Assembly (NCBI RefSeq): GCF_013205025.1 | Contig: NZ_JABMLE010000001.1 | Span: 62,001 to 126,000, forward strand | From: Rathayibacter sp. VKM Ac-2857 | GTDB taxonomy: Bacteria > Actinomycetota > Actinomycetes > Actinomycetales > Microbacteriaceae | DNA: 64,000 bases | Direction: 5' to 3' | In this document: one piece after another, positions 849-63,188 of the stretch | Numbering within the stretch: the first letter of the stretch is position 1 | Layout of the letters: every line of letters starts with the position of its first letter | The notes under the pieces: generated by a model | The model's database searches: none | The model's input: only the letters and a program-made list of their open reading frames with translations | What the model was told of the DNA's origin: nothing | Translations under genes and position numbers: made by a program

Positions 849-2930
<2,082 letters not shown>

Positions 2931-3163: not shown

Positions 3164-3397
3164 ATGTCGACCACAGCAACCCAGAACGGCGTGGACGAAC
3201 TCGCTGGATCGCAGCAGCTCTCCGCAGCCGACCGCTGCGACAGCTGCGGTGCCCAGGCGTACATCCGCGTCGTCGTGAACAGCGGAGAGCTCCTGTTCTG
3301 CGCCCACCACGGCAAGAAGTACCAGGAGAAGCTGTCCAGCATCGCCCAGAGCTGGCACGACGAGTCGGCGCGCCTCTTCGAGGAGCAGCGCCCCTAG
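3164..3397 (+). CDS. small zinc-binding DUF7455-like protein
   Basis: 77-residue protein with an AGGAGG ribosome binding site at 3151-3156, which selects this ATG over an upstream in-frame one. The centre contains CDSCGAQAYIRV and later FCAHHGKKY, a Cys-x-x-Cys plus Cys-x-His-His set suited to binding one zinc ion. The tail is an amphipathic helix rich in charged residues. Proteins of this kind are conserved in actinobacteria near rpoD/gyrB and are assigned to DUF7455; their function is unknown. It is transcribed away from parE. Zinc binding is inferred from the residues. Confidence 0.8.
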   Translation: MSTTATQNGVDELAGSQQLSAADRCDSCGAQAYIRVVVNSGELLFCAHHGKKYQEKLSSIAQSWHDESARLFEEQRP

Positions 3398-3432: not shown

Positions 3433-4155
3433 CTACCGGCCGACTCCGAGCCGCTTCGCGATCACTTCGCGGGCGGCTCGAGCTGTCTCATCGACCGCGC
3501 GGATGCGCTCGTCCTGCGTGGAGTAGTCCAGGCCGTGCCGCCCGGCCACGCGGTGCAGGATCGCGTCCGCGAGCGCGGGGTTCTTCGCCAGGACCGGGCC
3601 GTGCAGGTGCGTGCCGAGCAGTGCGCCCGCGGCGAAGCCCTCCACGCCCGCGCCGTCGCCGGTGCCGTGCAGCACCCGGCCGAGGACGTGCGCGGAATCG
3701 ATGCCCTCGAAGCGTCGTGCGTGGTTCTCGAAGCCGACGAGGACTCCGGCGCTCGACTCGACGATCAGATCGTCGGTCGTCCGCTCGCTCGTCACCGCCC
3801 GCCCCGGGAGGACCCCGATGCCCTCGACCACGGCGCCGGGGGTCGCGAAGGACTCCGCGAGGAGCTCCCAGCCCGCTCCGACGGCGACGACCTCGGTCTC
3901 GTCCCGCACCCAGCCGTGGACCGTGTCGCGCACGGAGCGCAGGAGGTCGAGCACATCGGGCAGGTCCTCGTCCGCTCCGGTGCCGGCCACGAGCACGTCG
4001 GGGCGCTCGGAGAAGTCGGCCTCCGCGCGCAGCGGCAGCACGCGGGCGTCGAGCCCGGCCCAGCCGGCGCGTGCCGCGAGGACGCGGGCGTTGGCCGCGT
4101 CGCCGTTGCTGTCCAGGACGTCGGGGGCGAGCACGCCGATCAGCAGGGTGGTCAC
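3433..4155 (-). CDS. GatD-like glutamine amidotransferase without catalytic cysteine
   Basis: 240-residue CobB/CobQ-type class I glutamine amidotransferase, matching GatD of the lipid II isoglutaminyl synthase MurT-GatD. Normal GatD uses a cysteine nucleophile, Cys94 in Staphylococcus aureus, to release ammonia from glutamine. Here the nucleophile elbow reads VVAVGAGWELL, with glycine 93 (codon 3877-3879, GGA) in the cysteine position, and the whole protein contains no cysteine. The histidine motif GTHLHGP (His185) is kept. The start overlaps the murT-like stop by four bases (ATGA), so the two are translationally coupled. Glutaminase activity should be absent; the protein may be a structural partner or may deliver another amine (inference). 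Confidence 0.85.
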   Translation of the reverse strand: MTTLLIGVLAPDVLDSNGDAANARVLAARAGWAGLDARVLPLRAEADFSERPDVLVAGTGADEDLPDVLDLLRSVRDTVHGWVRDETEVVAVGAGWELLAESFATPGAVVEGIGVLPGRAVTSERTTDDLIVESSAGVLVGFENHARRFEGIDSAHVLGRVLHGTGDGAGVEGFAAGALLGTHLHGPVLAKNPALADAILHRVAGRHGLDYSTQDERIRAVDETARAAREVIAKRLGVGR

Positions 4156-5417
4156 GCGGTCTCCTCGCGGTTGGAGGCGAGCTGGAGGTGGGCGCGGGTG
4201 CGCCGCATCGAGTCGGCGGAGAAGACGATCGTCTTCCGTCCGTGGCTCGGAGCCGGCAGCGCGAGGAAGGTGTCGAGCGCACGGCCGAGGTCGTCGTCGA
4301 CCGCGTCGATCGCGACTCCGTCGTAGCGCAGCTGCAGCGCGGCCTCGTGCGCCTTCGAACCGGAGACGACGCGGACCCGCCCGAGGCGGGCGGTGTCGAC
4401 CGGCCAGAAGTAGGACGGGTCGCGGACGTCCGAGCCGAGGGCGAGCATGATCTGCTCGGTGCCCTCGGGGATCTCCGCGATGTTGAGGCGGTAGCTCGCC
4501 GGGTTCTGCACCAGGACGAACTCGACCTCCTGCCCGCGGACCGTCACGATCTCGCCGCGTCCGAAGACGGGCTCGATCGAGGAGAGCGCCGAGGCGGTCG
4601 TCGCCGGGAGGAAGCGGGTGCCGAGGATCGCCCGGGCTGCGGAGACCGCCGAGGCGGCGTCGACCGCGTAGTGCACGCCACGGGCCGGCAGCCGGACGTC
4701 GAGGACGTCGCCGTCGCTGCTGATCGTCGCGGCGGCTCCGGTGGTGCTCTCGACGACGGTCGTCGCGCGCCCGTCCTGGCCCTCGGCGTCGGCCGCGTAG
4801 CCGAGGCCGCCGACGGCCGCCTCGCGGACGGCGGGCGAGACGCCGTACCAGCGGATCCGGTCGGTCGGCAGTGTCGTCGCGATGTCCGCGACGTGGCGGT
4901 CGTCCGCGTTGAGCACGACCGGCCCTGTGGCCCGGCCCGCGATCGTCGCGAGCATCCGCGCGACCATGGCCGGGTCGAAGAAGCGGTCGATCTGATCGAC
5001 GACGACGTTGGTGAGCAGGACGACGCGCGGGCTCATCCGGGGTGCGAGACGCGCGCCGTGACCCTCGTCCATCTCGAGGACGGCGATGTCCGCGTCGATC
5101 CGCCCGCGGAGGTCGGTGCGCTCGAGCAGCGCCGAGGTCAGCCCCTGCGCGATGTTCGCGGTCGAGGGATTGGTGAAGACGCGCAGCCCGTGGGCGCGCA
5201 GGACGGCGACGAGCATCTTGGTCGTCGTCGACTTCCCGGCCGAGCCGGAGACGACGACGAGGCCGTCGGTGAAGCCGTCGAGCACGGCCGGGAGGAAGCC
5301 CGGCGCGAGGCGGTTCACGACGAGCCCGGGCACGGCGGAGCCTCCGCCGGGCTTGCGGACGCGCGCTGCGAACCGGGCGGCCCTCCCGAGGAGGACCGCC
5401 GGCGCGTAGCGGATCAT
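4152..5417 (-). CDS. MurT-like Mur ligase lacking the zinc ribbon
   Basis: 421-residue Mur-ligase family protein with the MurT C-terminal domain (DUF1727). MurT activates the alpha-carboxyl of D-glutamate in lipid II with ATP so that GatD-derived ammonia can amidate it. Seen here: P-loop GSAGKST (residues 58-64), the LEMDEG motif (115-120), LNADD (169-173), and RDPSYFWPVD (332-341), which keeps the conserved Asp of the MurT segment that contacts the GatD active site. The four-cysteine zinc ribbon normally inserted in the central domain is absent, and the protein has no cysteine at all. Only four bases separate it from sigA upstream. The ligase chemistry is probably retained with a changed amine donor (inference). 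Confidence 0.85.
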   Translation of the reverse strand: MIRYAPAVLLGRAARFAARVRKPGGGSAVPGLVVNRLAPGFLPAVLDGFTDGLVVVSGSAGKSTTTKMLVAVLRAHGLRVFTNPSTANIAQGLTSALLERTDLRGRIDADIAVLEMDEGHGARLAPRMSPRVVLLTNVVVDQIDRFFDPAMVARMLATIAGRATGPVVLNADDRHVADIATTLPTDRIRWYGVSPAVREAAVGGLGYAADAEGQDGRATTVVESTTGAAATISSDGDVLDVRLPARGVHYAVDAASAVSAARAILGTRFLPATTASALSSIEPVFGRGEIVTVRGQEVEFVLVQNPASYRLNIAEIPEGTEQIMLALGSDVRDPSYFWPVDTARLGRVRVVSGSKAHEAALQLRYDGVAIDAVDDDLGRALDTFLALPAPSHGRKTIVFSADSMRRTRAHLQLASNREETA

Positions 5418-5421
5418 CGGC

Positions 5422-6696
<1,275 letters not shown>

Positions 6697-6964: not shown

Positions 6965-8293
6965 TCAGCGTCCTGCGCGGCCACGACGGAGACGGTCGTT
7001 CAATGCAACCCACAGGGGGGCCACCGTTATTCCCTCGTCCTCGGCGAGCCGGCGCCGGGTCCTGCGGCGAGCGGTGATCAGTCCGATCACCCCTGCGCCC
7101 ACGATCACGTACTGGATGCACCAGGCCAGCCGGAAGTGGTCCATCGAGTAGAGCTCGGCCGAGTCGGCGCCCGGCCCGGCGAGCGAGTCGAGCAGCAGCC
7201 CCATCAGGAACATCATCGTGAAGCTCGCGAGGAAGCCGCCGACGTTGACGACGCCGTTGGCGGCACCGAGGCTCCGCGAGGGGTTGAAGGTGCGCGCGAA
7301 GTCGAAGCCGATCATCGAGCCCGGGCCGCCGGCGCCGATCACGATCAGCAGCAGGACGACCAGCCAGTACGGCGGGACGCCCGGCCAGAGCAGGACGACG
7401 GTCCAGGCCACCGCCATCGCCGAGACGATGCCGAGCACGAGGTTGCTCCGCCGCATCGGGTGCCGCGCGGTGAGGACGCCGAGGATCGGACCGACCACGA
7501 TGCCGGCGACCACGACGATCGTCAGCGTCGGAGCGGCGACCCGCGGATCGAGGCCGATGGCGTAGACGAGGAAGGGGTACCCCCACAGCAGCGTGAAGAC
7601 GGTGCCGGAGGACTGCGTCACGAAGTGCGACCAGAATCCGAGCTGCGTGCCCGGCCGGCGCAGGCTCACGCCCAGCTGGGCGATCGTCGCGCGGAGCGTC
7701 GGCGGCACCAGGACGATCGGCTCGGTCCGGGGCGGGACGTCGGTGATCAGCAGCAGCACGCCGAGGAACGCCACGGCTCCGATCCCGGCGACGGAGAGGA
7801 AGGCCGGCGTCCAGCCCGCCGCGTGCAGGATCGCGGCGAAGGGCAGTGCGGAGAGGATCTGGCCGACCTGGCCGATGTTGCCGATCCACTGCGAGAGCTG
7901 CGGCACGATCGGTCCGCTGAACCAGGTCACGGTCAGCCGGATCACCGAGGTGAAGATCGCGGCGTCGCCCGCGCCCACCAGGATGCGGCCCACGATCGCG
8001 ACGCCGAGGGAGGGCGCGAAGGCCAGGACGATCTGGCCGACCATCATCAGCGCGGTGCCGCTGAGGATCAGCGTCTTCGGGCCGAAGCGGTCGATCAGGA
8101 TGCCGACCGGGATCTGCATGCCGGCGTAGACGATGAGCTGCACCACCGCGAGGGAGGAGAGCATCGCGGCCGAGATGCCGAAGCGCTCCGCCGCGTCGAC
8201 GCCCGCCACTCCGAGCGTCGTGCGGTCGAGGACCGCGACCAGGTACGCGAAGGCACCGGCACCGAAGACGAACCAGGCTCGACGAGATCGCAC
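6965..8293 (-). CDS. major facilitator superfamily transporter
   Basis: 442-residue membrane protein with about twelve hydrophobic helices and a central basic loop, the usual MFS layout. The motif between helices 2 and 3 is recognisable (GILIDRFGPKTLI). The closest theme is the nitrate/hexuronate or drug-efflux class of MFS proteins; the substrate cannot be read from sequence. The start is GTG: the -10 box TAGTCT (minus strand, 8301-8306) ends seven bases before it, so the mRNA is probably leaderless. The gene stands alone, read in the same direction as the PAC2 gene upstream but with its own promoter. Confidence 0.88.
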   Translation of the reverse strand: MRSRRAWFVFGAGAFAYLVAVLDRTTLGVAGVDAAERFGISAAMLSSLAVVQLIVYAGMQIPVGILIDRFGPKTLILSGTALMMVGQIVLAFAPSLGVAIVGRILVGAGDAAIFTSVIRLTVTWFSGPIVPQLSQWIGNIGQVGQILSALPFAAILHAAGWTPAFLSVAGIGAVAFLGVLLLITDVPPRTEPIVLVPPTLRATIAQLGVSLRRPGTQLGFWSHFVTQSSGTVFTLLWGYPFLVYAIGLDPRVAAPTLTIVVVAGIVVGPILGVLTARHPMRRSNLVLGIVSAMAVAWTVVLLWPGVPPYWLVVLLLIVIGAGGPGSMIGFDFARTFNPSRSLGAANGVVNVGGFLASFTMMFLMGLLLDSLAGPGADSAELYSMDHFRLAWCIQYVIVGAGVIGLITARRRTRRRLAEDEGITVAPLWVALNDRLRRGRAGR

Positions 8294-8332: not shown

Positions 8333-9256
8333 CTACGGGGCGGTGGGCTCCTCGCCCGGGCGCTTGATCGCGAGGAACTTCTCCAGCTCGGCCGCGAGCG
8401 CGTCGGCGGTCGGGACGAAGCCGTCCTCGTCGGTGAGCGGCGAGCGCAGGCTCGTCCCCTCCATGTAGGTGTCGTGCCGCGACTCGAGCGCCGAGACCAG
8501 CTTCTGCAGCTCGTCGTTCGCGCCGACCTGCTCGTCGACCTTCGCGAGGAACTCGCGACCGCTCTCGCGGAGGCTGTCGGTCGGGAAGATCAGCCCGGTC
8601 GACGCCGAGATGCTCTCGAGCGCCGCGACGGCCGCCTGGGGGTAGGCGGTGTCGGAGAGGTAGTGCGGGATGAGCAGGGCGAAGCCGACGGCCGGCTGCG
8701 CGCGGTCGTACAGGCGGAGCTCGAGCAGGTGCAGGACGTTGGCGGGCACCTGGGTGACCGGCTTCCAGACCGACATGGCCTCGATCAGGTCCTCGCGGTT
8801 GCCGCTGACGGTCACGCCGACCGGGCGGGTGTGCGGGACGGGCATCGGGATCGCGTGCACCCAGGTGGTGCTCGCGACCTCGAGCCGGTCGATGAGCTCG
8901 AGCACCGCCCGGGTGAAGCGCTCCCACTGGTAGTCCGGCTCGAAGCCGGTGAGCAGCAGGAACGGCTGGTGCAGCTCGTCGTGCGCGAGCGAGAGACGGA
9001 GGGTCGCCGGCGTGTAGTCGGTGAGGTGGTCCTGGTCGAAGGTGATGATGGGCCGGCGCGCGCGGTAGTCGAGCAGCTGGTCCGGGTCGAACTCGACGAC
9101 GGTCCGGTGCTCGAGAGTGCCGTGCAGGTGCTCGGCGAGCTGGCCGACGGCACCGCCCGCGTCCGCGAACCCGGTGAGCCCGGCCACGAGGTGGAGGCCC
9201 CGCGGGACGTCGGCGAGGTCGCCCTCGATCGCGAACAGGTCTGCAGGATCCGGCAT
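8333..9256 (-). CDS. PAC2 family protein
   Basis: 307-residue protein of the PAC2 (proteasome assembly chaperone 2-like) family, common in actinobacteria and without an established role. The N-terminus has the family signature GLHLVAGLTGFADAGGAVGQL, followed by HRTVVEFDPDQLLDYRARRP, which matches the conserved core. The C-terminal third is helical and charged. The start was moved to the internal ATG because TAGGGT (9264-9269, minus strand) ends seven bases upstream of it, the leaderless pattern seen repeatedly here. It is divergent from pepA, with both promoters inside about 110 bases. Confidence 0.85.
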   Translation of the reverse strand: MPDPADLFAIEGDLADVPRGLHLVAGLTGFADAGGAVGQLAEHLHGTLEHRTVVEFDPDQLLDYRARRPIITFDQDHLTDYTPATLRLSLAHDELHQPFLLLTGFEPDYQWERFTRAVLELIDRLEVASTTWVHAIPMPVPHTRPVGVTVSGNREDLIEAMSVWKPVTQVPANVLHLLELRLYDRAQPAVGFALLIPHYLSDTAYPQAAVAALESISASTGLIFPTDSLRESGREFLAKVDEQVGANDELQKLVSALESRHDTYMEGTSLRSPLTDEDGFVPTADALAAELEKFLAIKRPGEEPTAP

Positions 9257-9369
9257 GCGATCAACCCTAGACGGCCCACGGCGGCCCCTCCCCGGCGGCG
9301 CTGAGCCCTGAGCGAACAGCCGAGCCGGGGCGGCGGAGCGCCGTCGCAGCCGCACCTAGCATTGCGCTC

Positions 9370-61433: not shown

Positions 61434-63188
61434 TCAGCGAACGGTCAGGGTGATCGCCGCGCTCGTCGAGGTGTTCCCCGCGCGATCGACCGGCTTGGCG
61501 GTGACCGGGTGCGATCCCTTCGTGAATCCGCCCGTCGAGACGGTGAGTGTCCAACTGCCGTCGGCGGCCTGCTTGGCCGCGCCGATCCGGGTCTTTCCGC
61601 TCCAGAAGACGAGCGACGCGGTGTCCGGGTCGGAGACGGCGACCAGCGTGACCGTCCCGACCACCGTGCTGCCCGCGGCCGGGCTGGTGATGCGGGCGAC
61701 GAGGGCGGTCGTGTCGCGGACCGGTGTCGGTGTCGGTGTCGCGGACGGTGTGCGGGTCGGCGTCGGCGTCGCGGAAGGTGTGCGGGTCGGCGTCGGGGTG
61801 GCGGTCGCCGTGCGTGTCGGAGTCGGAGTCGGGCTCGCGGTCGGCGTGCGCGTCGGAGCCGGCGTCACGGACGGCGTCGGCGTGCTGCTCGGCACGGCAC
61901 TCGGCGGAACGGTCGGTCGCGGCGTCGCAGTCGGCGCGGGTGTCGCCGATGGTGAGGGTGCGGGCGTCGGAGTCGGCGTCGAGATCGGGGTTGCAGTCGG
62001 TTTCGGCGTCGGCGCCGCGGTCGGGAGCGGACTCGGTTCCGGAGTGTCCGCCGTGGGCGCCGCGGACGGAGTCGGCACAGGTGTGGCGGGCGAGGTGGGC
62101 GCGGACGTCGGTTCCGGTGTCGGGGCGGCACTGGGCTCGGGCTCCGCAGGTGCGGTCGCCGTGGGCGTGACCGTCGGAACAGGAGACTCCGTCGGCACGG
62201 GAGTCGGAGTCGCCGTCGGTTCAGGAGCGGGGGACGCCGTCGGCTCAGGAGTGGAGGTCGGCGTCGCGGTCGGAAGCGGCGTGGCCGTCGTCGCGGCGAA
62301 GCGCGCGGCCCAGGCCGGCACCCGCTCCGGACCCCAGAGCACGTCCGCGATCAGGGCCTGGCCGCGCGCGTTCGGGTGGAACCAGTCCACGGTCGACACG
62401 ATGTCCGGGGTGAGCGGTGTGGCGGTGAAGGCGCCGCCGTCCCAGACGCAGCGCGGACCGACCGCGGCGCAGGCCGACGCCAGCGCGCGGTCGTACTGCT
62501 CGGTGCGCAGAGCCGCGGCCGCGGCCGAAGCGGTCTGCGCCTCGCCGGTCAAGGGCACTCCCGTATCCGTGACTCCGCGGGTCGTCCGGCACAGCTTGCT
62601 CGCGACCCAGACAGGCTCGGCCGGTCCCCCGCGCAGTCCCGCCCACTCCGAGGCGACGTCCGGCACCGAGCCCAGCAGGATCGTCGTGGTGGGCCAGGCA
62701 CTGCCGATCTGCTGCAGCAGGCTCGAGGCGGACGTCGAGAACGCCGCCGCCGTCGTCATCGTGTAGCCGTCGGCCGCCGGGTAGAGGTCGCCGTGGCAGA
62801 GGTCGTTGCCGCCGATCATCAGGGTGACGACGTCGGGCGACGCTCCCGCCGCCGCCGCCGAGGTCACCATCGCGGCCACGGCCCGGATCCTGCTCCCGGA
62901 CTTCGCGTAGTTGGCCGTGCTGACGACGCTGCCCGGCGCGATCTCCTGCAGCCGGGTGGCGATGGAGCGGACGGCCGGCGCCGAGCCGGTCGACCAGGAG
63001 TTGACCGGGCAGTCGGCCTTGGTCGTGCAGCTCGCTCTCCCCTGGCTGATCGAGTCGCCGAGCGCGAGGACCGAGATCGTGGCGGGCTCGGCCGCGGCGA
63101 CCGGGACGGCGGCGCTCGCGAGGACCAGCAGCGCGGTGCCCAGCGCGACGGCGAAGCGGAGAGGGCGGCGGTTCGGACGCGCGCGCAT
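61434..63188 (-). CDS. secreted SGNH/GDSL hydrolase with long Pro/Thr linker and Ig-like domain (paralogue 2)
   Basis: 584-residue paralogue of the gene at 59610. Signal peptide ([22 protein letters not shown]), GDSISQG nucleophile motif, [10 protein letters not shown] and VDWFHPN complete the SGNH domain (to about residue 285). The linker is longer, about 200 residues, of mixed PT, EPTA and TPTPT repeats, and the Ig-like domain again ends in [10 protein letters not shown]. The ATG at MRARPNRRP was chosen as it begins the basic n-region of the signal peptide. The hydrolase domains of paralogues 1 and 2 are closely similar along their length. Confidence 0.9.

Follow-up and report, generated by a model that had tools for sequence, protein, structure and literature searches.

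What does a MurT/GatD gene pair do when its glutaminase has lost the catalytic cysteine (Cys)? Such a pair lies in a 64,000-nucleotide stretch of the genome of Rathayibacter sp. VKM Ac-2857 (NZ_JABMLE010000001.1, positions 62,001 to 126,000), the whole of which is referred to here as the window. MurT-GatD amidates the alpha-carboxyl of D-glutamate (D-Glu) in lipid II, and in the Microbacteriaceae, which live in soil and on plants and have an unusual, B-type cell wall, that same carboxyl carries the bridge diamino acid. Group B peptidoglycan also occurs outside the actinobacteria, in Erysipelothrix and Eubacterium limosum. A search of the openly licensed literature, outside which most subscription journals fall, found no enzyme described as joining D-Glu to the amino acid of the bridge in group B walls, and no report in which MurT/GatD or CofE-like proteins are linked with cross-bridges of that group. 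We propose that the Cys-less pair is probably a B-type peptidoglycan bridge ligase, attaching the bridge diamino acid to the D-Glu alpha-carboxyl. If so, an amidotransferase was turned into an amino-acid ligase through loss of its glutaminase centre, apparently twice.

Loss of the nucleophile in GatD

The pair and the residues discussed below were placed in the window as follows.

4152..5417, minus strand: MurT-like ligase, type A, 421 amino acids (Mur_ligase_M 42.9 bits; MurT_C 24.3 bits, cut-off 25; PDB 7q8e chain A, E 3.8e-23)
3433..4155, minus strand: GatD-like protein without the catalytic Cys, 240 amino acids (GATase_3 48.2 bits; PDB 5n9m chain A, E 3e-19)
3877..3879, minus strand: codon of Gly93, which stands where the glutaminase has its nucleophile Cys (from the alignment with S. 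aureus GatD)
5220..5246, minus strand: MurT P-loop GSAGKSTTT, residues 58-66
5154..5156, minus strand: MurT Asn88, which we equate with Asn85 of S. pneumoniae MurT, the residue that binds the acceptor carboxylate (role from PMC6085368)
4998..5000, minus strand: MurT Val140, assumed to stand where the gate residue Arg135 belongs (role from PMC6085368)

Gly93 of the GatD-like protein aligned with Cys94 of S. aureus GatD (phmmer, E 3e-19), as a reading of the sequence alone (hereafter the sequence-only reading) had claimed, and the triad residues His185 and Asp19 were kept. The MurT-like protein matched S. aureus MurT across the Mur ligase centre (E 4e-23). The P-loop, GatD His185 and the MurT RDxSxxW segment (here RDPSYFW), which the same reading described as remaining, were all found; the overlap that it gave as ATGA reads GTGA, and the gatD start codon is GTG. 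It had also stressed that both proteins are free of Cys. This is correct, with zero Cys in either protein, but it is near chance in this genome: Cys makes up 0.40% of 35 gene-like window frames, the probability of both proteins being Cys-free is about 0.07, and 6 of the 26 window frames of at least 200 amino acids contain none. Some relatives of the pair carry Cys at other positions. Cys-freeness as such was dropped as a signal; the loss of the nucleophile at the catalytic position, unlike the overall absence of Cys, is not chance.

The window MurT is 93% identical to Rathayibacter MurT, and comparison of the window genes with those of two Rathayibacter revealed both to be under purifying selection (Ka/Ks 0.18-0.22 for GatD and 0.11-0.14 for MurT). 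The window genome gave a single MurT_C match (27.6 bits in the genome search, 24.3 bits against a cut-off of 25 in the separate domain search). A second intact MurT/GatD, which the sequence-only reading would have counted against its own inference if depletion also left the bridge unaffected, was not seen there by the MurT_C family search, the sensitivity of which is incomplete here (Okibacterium was missed though its pair is visible at the locus).

GatD was read from 103 copies in the family of the window (f1, judged from its named loci to be the Microbacteriaceae). None of the 81 copies with sigA, the gene for the primary sigma factor, in the same stretch had Cys at the nucleophile position. 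The family also contained 16 Cys-bearing copies, with sigA in none of their stretches, and 6 further copies without Cys for which sigA was not visible. In other families of the same order the nucleophile Cys was present in 60 of the 60 copies read (21 and 39), from a survey in which 79 genomes had a match, 19 of these not being read, and the query matched nothing in 158 of the order's 248 genomes. Of the two losses that the sequence-only reading proposed to check against the wall type, that of Cys follows the family pairs beside sigA; that of the zinc ribbon does not, as described below. Among named loci, taken as the best 80 of 585 from one scan, 61 contained the pair, never with Cys (52 Gly, 7 Ala and 2 His). 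A CofE-like gene stood in its place in 13 (12 identified by script and L303 from its translation), and the remaining 6 showed neither ligase, as the stretch ended or sigA lay outside it.

Residues were compared between 69 Cys-less sequences (25 of type A, 36 of type B and 8 of type C) and 31 Cys-bearing ones, with equivalences taken from our own alignments. The GatD His was lost in 15/36 type B and 8/8 type C sequences and the oxyanion glycines were partly replaced. The Arg that captures glutamine (PMC6085368) was kept in 67 of the 69. Position 185 of GatD was Gln in Curtobacterium, Lys in Frigoribacterium, Frondihabitans and Agreia, and His or Gly in genera reported with 2,4-diaminobutyric acid (DAB). 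This is suggestive of a code for the diamino acid, read from the alignment; the idea was set aside, as look-alikes in further genomes came mostly from one clade.

Two genomes are worth describing individually. Leifsonia aquatica (L374) encodes a Cys-bearing MurT/GatD besides the Cys-less pair and was alone among 40 named genomes in having two MurT_C matches. The 927,303-base genome G015 (L116) has kept, despite its small size, the Cys-less pair beside sigA together with a split racemase gene pair (AlrC-AlrN, see below).

Conservation of the MurT ligase centre

The P-loop Lys, the acceptor-carboxylate Asn, the Asp-Glu pair and the hinge Arg of MurT were invariant in 69/69 Cys-less sequences. 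The position of the gate Arg was occupied by Val, Thr or Ile in all 61 type A and B sequences, and by Arg in 8/8 type C and 31/31 Cys-bearing pairs; in S. pneumoniae MurT this Arg closes the channel gate (PMC6085368). An amino-acid-binding Arg, the glutamine-capturing one of GatD, and the MurT ligase centre thus survive, and the ammonia generator does not.

The four-Cys zinc ribbon is gone from the window MurT, as the sequence-only reading had noticed, but its loss was ruled out as a mark of the B-type wall. Outside the family, 17 of the 21 Cys-bearing pairs that were read had no four-Cys motif, 15 having at most two Cys there, and the motif was present in 6 of 8 Cys-less type C pairs. Since so many Cys-bearing pairs lack it, the ribbon is not truly defining for MurT/GatD.

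A CofE-like ligase in the same chromosomal slot

The locus is bounded by the following genes.

5422..6696, minus strand: sigA, primary sigma factor, conserved neighbour upstream of the MurT-like gene
3164..3397, plus strand: small Cys-rich protein, conserved marker of the locus, which we take to be DUF7455
849..2930, minus strand: parE/gyrB-type topoisomerase subunit, outer marker of the locus, named by eye

By protein and profile searches MurT was missing from 29 of the 150 genomes of the family; the profile search, run over 55 genomes, confirmed the absence and ruled out a search miss. A strong CofE-like gene (PF01996) was present in 21 of these 29 genomes and in 0 of the 121 MurT-bearing ones (Fisher 2e-19, a value that ignores ancestry). 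The 150 genomes thus comprise 107 with a MurT/GatD that was not seen as Cys-bearing only, GatD having been read in only part of them, 21 in which the strong CofE-like gene occurs, 14 whose only pair is Cys-bearing and 8 with neither system. All 20 loci fetched from MurT-less genomes encoded the CofE-like protein, 19 an ATP-grasp ligase (PF14397) and 14 the AlrC-AlrN pair; at one locus (L190) the contig ends before sigA. The CofE-like gene lies between sigA and parE (for example L186:3038-3757, L199:5139-5846 and relatives). Both kinds of ligase occurred within nine genus groups (g7, g9, g13, g57, g58, g76, g84, g79 and g85), of which g79 is nearest to Agromyces and g85 to Microbacterium among named genomes (SigA about 95-99% over 336-361 residues).

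The known relative CofE adds glutamate and is an amide ligase that joins an amino acid to a carboxyl. The CofE-like family at the sigA-parE slot is a probable second type of bridge ligase. The type of ligase is exchangeable while its company of racemases and ATP-grasp ligases is shared, and this is the strongest argument that MurT/GatD adds an amino acid here. At least two ligases, the Cys-less pair among them, are exchangeable, and the pair is not universal in the family.

Some loci were unusual. The hybrid locus L209 (G123) contained, in a row, sigA, a weak CofE homologue, a divergent MurT/GatD with Ser at the place of the Cys, AlrC and AlrN. In Microbacterium sp. cf332 (L303:9287-12064) a CofE-like gene, identified by eye, was followed by two ATP-grasp ligase genes, and the genome had one Ala_racemase_C match. 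In G049 (g49) the slot between sigA and the marker gene held, by eye, an amino-acid ATP-binding cassette transporter and no ligase. Of the genomes having a Cys-bearing pair only or neither system, those that could be compared (G003, G014, G019, G024, G047 and G049) proved to be far from any named genome (best ParE identity about 72-76%), whereas G016 is near Amnibacterium (ParE 83%). Should these genomes have group B walls, a third enzyme would be required.

Racemases at the locus and reported bridges

An AlrC-AlrN pair was found beside the type B MurT/GatD in many genomes, and an ATP-grasp ligase beside several of type C. Analysis of the split alanine racemase at 55 loci, some genomes being represented twice (e.g. 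L192:5133-6931, L205:454-2456), showed the Tyr motif in 54/55 AlrC and the motif of the pyridoxal phosphate-binding Lys in 0/55. The Tyr motif was absent from 55/55 AlrN, and the Lys motif was found in 37/55 under a strict pattern. The motifs suggest that AlrC and AlrN form a heterodimer in which the two half sites complement each other. Six type B genomes (G007, G011, G109, G031, G035 and G087) had no racemase pair at the locus and two adjacent alanine racemase genes elsewhere.

Racemase supply was counted as Ala_racemase_C matches, the split pair counting as two. Among 31 named genomes with the MurT/GatD pair, one match was found in 14/15 of type A (L288 being typed A without its motif having been read) and two or more in 16/16 of type B. 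A second genome set, which included the window genome, gave one match in 9/11 of type A and two or more in 11/12 of type B. A statistical claim for this link was dropped, as its Fisher value of 6e-8 ignores ancestry.

Rathayibacter presumably has mainly L-DAB in its bridge. One Rathayibacter species is reported with DAB and the Clavibacter bridge with D-DAB. The bridge of Agromyces aureus is D-Glu-L-Dab (PMC5217419), and Herbiconiux contains both D- and L-DAB (PMC10011130). DAB is reported for Subtercola, L-DAB with D-ornithine (D-Orn) for Agreia and D-Orn for Frondihabitans (PMC5945732); D-Lys for Frigoribacterium, DAB for Cryobacterium, and Lys and Orn for Salinibacterium (PMC7033078); and D-Orn, L-Lys or DAB for Microbacterium (PMC10757982). 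Together with the racemase counts, these reports fit L bridges in type A and D bridges in type B.

Phylogeny of the Cys-less pairs

A MurT tree of 85 sequences was built by a quick method, with support from the Shimodaira-Hasegawa-like approximate likelihood ratio test (SH-aLRT) only and a midpoint root. Types A and B with divergent relatives formed one clade (SH-aLRT 100) inside the ribbon-less, Cys-bearing part of the tree. Type C was a separate lineage on a long branch, beside Cys-bearing pairs mostly with the ribbon. As the A/B clade and type C sit apart in this tree, Cys was probably lost at least twice, each time in pairs beside sigA.

Comparison with known systems

The MurT/GatD isoglutaminyl synthase of S. 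aureus, S. pneumoniae and mycobacteria shares with the window pair the gene order, the gene overlap, the Mur ligase centre, the P-loop, the acceptor Asn, the Asp-Glu pair and, by sequence, the GatD fold; the window GatD additionally has Asp19, His185 and the glutamine-capturing Arg. In contrast to the synthase, the window pair has no nucleophile Cys, has partly lost the oxyanion glycines, lacks the ribbon and the gate Arg, and adjoins sigA. It fell far under the NCBIfam isoglutaminyl synthase equivalog cut-offs (83.5 of 450 bits for GatD and 83.8 of 800 for MurT) and should be filed as a Cys-less MurT/GatD variant, not as an isoglutaminyl synthase.

CofE (coenzyme F420-0:L-glutamate ligase, PF01996) is unrelated in sequence to the window pair, but a relative of it occupies the same chromosomal slot in MurT-less genomes. 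That gene scored 33 bits against a CofE equivalog cut-off of 181 and so is itself a divergent member of the family. The Mur ligases MurC-F have the same fold as MurT and are ATP ligases that accept amino acids; they act on soluble uridine diphosphate-linked precursors, whereas the only substrates of S. aureus MurT/GatD are lipid I and II (PMC6085368). Archaeal pseudomurein MurT/GatD (PMC11915815) shows that MurT occurs outside bacterial walls and that a MurT-like protein without a GatD partner exists, but the available part of that source describes neither a bridge role nor a Cys-less GatD.

Proposed function and alternatives

The bridge ligase that we favour would work as follows. MurT would bind the membrane-linked precursor and use ATP to phosphorylate D-Glu(2) at its alpha-carboxyl, as the known amidotransferase does, and the acyl phosphate would be attacked by an amino group of a diamino acid, not by ammonia. 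For Rathayibacter, Agromyces and the remaining type A genera the predicted diamino acid is L-DAB; for type B genera it is D-DAB, D-Orn or D-Lys. GatD would no longer hydrolyse glutamine but would stay as a needed partner, and its former glutamine pocket, in which the Arg is kept, may help to hold the incoming amino acid. A precedent for a role of GatD beyond glutaminase is that it is still required when ammonia is supplied (PMC6085368). In relatives the CofE-like ligase would perform the same job, and the neighbouring split racemases and ATP-grasp ligases could provide the D-amino acid or attach one more residue. A D bridge is predicted where the CofE-like gene is accompanied by a racemase pair (Microbacterium yannicii), and a bridge of the L-Lys type where it is accompanied by ATP-grasp and the genome has no additional racemase (Microbacterium sp. 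cf332).

The bridge role had already been put forward in the sequence-only reading, as a repurposing of the pair to accept an amino acid, and it now has strong indirect support: the nucleophile is lost across the family at one locus, the MurT residues are kept, an unrelated amide ligase appears in the slot, racemases and ATP-grasp ligases are co-located, and the subtype matches the racemase supply. That account was incomplete, and two points in it are corrected, the ribbon being irrelevant and the pair being one of at least two exchangeable ligases. With 29 MurT-less genomes (21 of them with the CofE-like gene) and 14 having a Cys-bearing pair only, the pair is one solution and not the solution.

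Several observations weigh against the proposed bridge role. The 14 genomes with a Cys-bearing pair only and the 8 with neither system (two of these 87% complete) lie within the family. Three of the MurT-bearing genomes also contain a weak CofE homologue (34-41% identity): G053 and G123 (g53) have it together with MurT, and G147 has it besides type B MurT. Type C is far diverged and retains the gate Arg. Wall types are assigned by genus from papers mostly on strains other than those sequenced, with a single L-bridge report. The racemase link also has exceptions (Amnibacterium setariae, G097 and G078 of type A with two matches; G002 of type B with one) and comprises only 1-2 independent pairs on well-supported branches, too few for significance, though none is opposed. 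Finally, two Clavibacter genomes that were searched had one MurT_C match each, and amidation or hydroxylation of D-Glu is among the muropeptide modifications reported for C. michiganensis (PMC9603630), so the Cys-less pair could there be the amidase.

An amidase would use free ammonia to form D-isoglutamine on bridge-free stems, with GatD only a scaffold. Besides the Clavibacter muropeptides, the unchanged Mur residues agree with this, and for the S. aureus enzyme ammonia can take the place of glutamine at pH 8.5, provided that GatD is there (PMC6085368). It is nevertheless the main rival and one that we regard as unlikely, since a bridge and an amide would need the same carboxyl, types A and B lack the gate Arg, and an amino acid accounts better than ammonia does for the CofE-like exclusivity and the racemase and ATP-grasp company; the presence of both pairs in Leifsonia aquatica also suggests two jobs. 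The ligase might otherwise act on another envelope or cofactor carboxyl, such as a gamma-glutamyl polymer or modified precursor, and not on the D-Glu bridge. Mur-fold ligases do serve other pathways, the CofE-like and ATP-grasp neighbours are general amide ligases, and the substrate of the pair is deduced from its context; but the MurT acceptor and metal residues are unchanged, a B-type bridge on D-Glu requires a carboxyl-activating enzyme, and racemase supply tracks the few reported bridge stereochemistries, which makes such a target quite improbable. Decay of the glutaminase triad, in which His too is lost in part of type B and all of type C, would be expected of a non-catalytic relic or regulatory pseudo-enzyme retained beside sigA. 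The invariant MurT active site, the purifying selection on both genes and the frequent replacement of the pair by another enzyme, and not its simple loss, leave this with very little probability.

A wider model building on the bridge ligase is offered tentatively, at somewhat less than an even chance. Group B bridges would be made from one modular sigA-linked locus, in which two unrelated and interchangeable D-Glu alpha-carboxyl ligases, a dead-glutaminase MurT/GatD or a CofE-like protein, are accompanied by two kinds of optional module, heterodimeric split racemases and ATP-grasp ligases, that set stereochemistry and length, and in which the glutamine pocket of MurT/GatD holds the bridge diamino acid. 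With the locus, two candidate ligases, candidate racemases and genus-level predictions named, the bridge question becomes directly testable.

Neighbouring genes

Upstream of sigA, genes for a major facilitator superfamily transporter (6965-8293) and a PAC2-like chaperone (8333-9355) were identified by eye.
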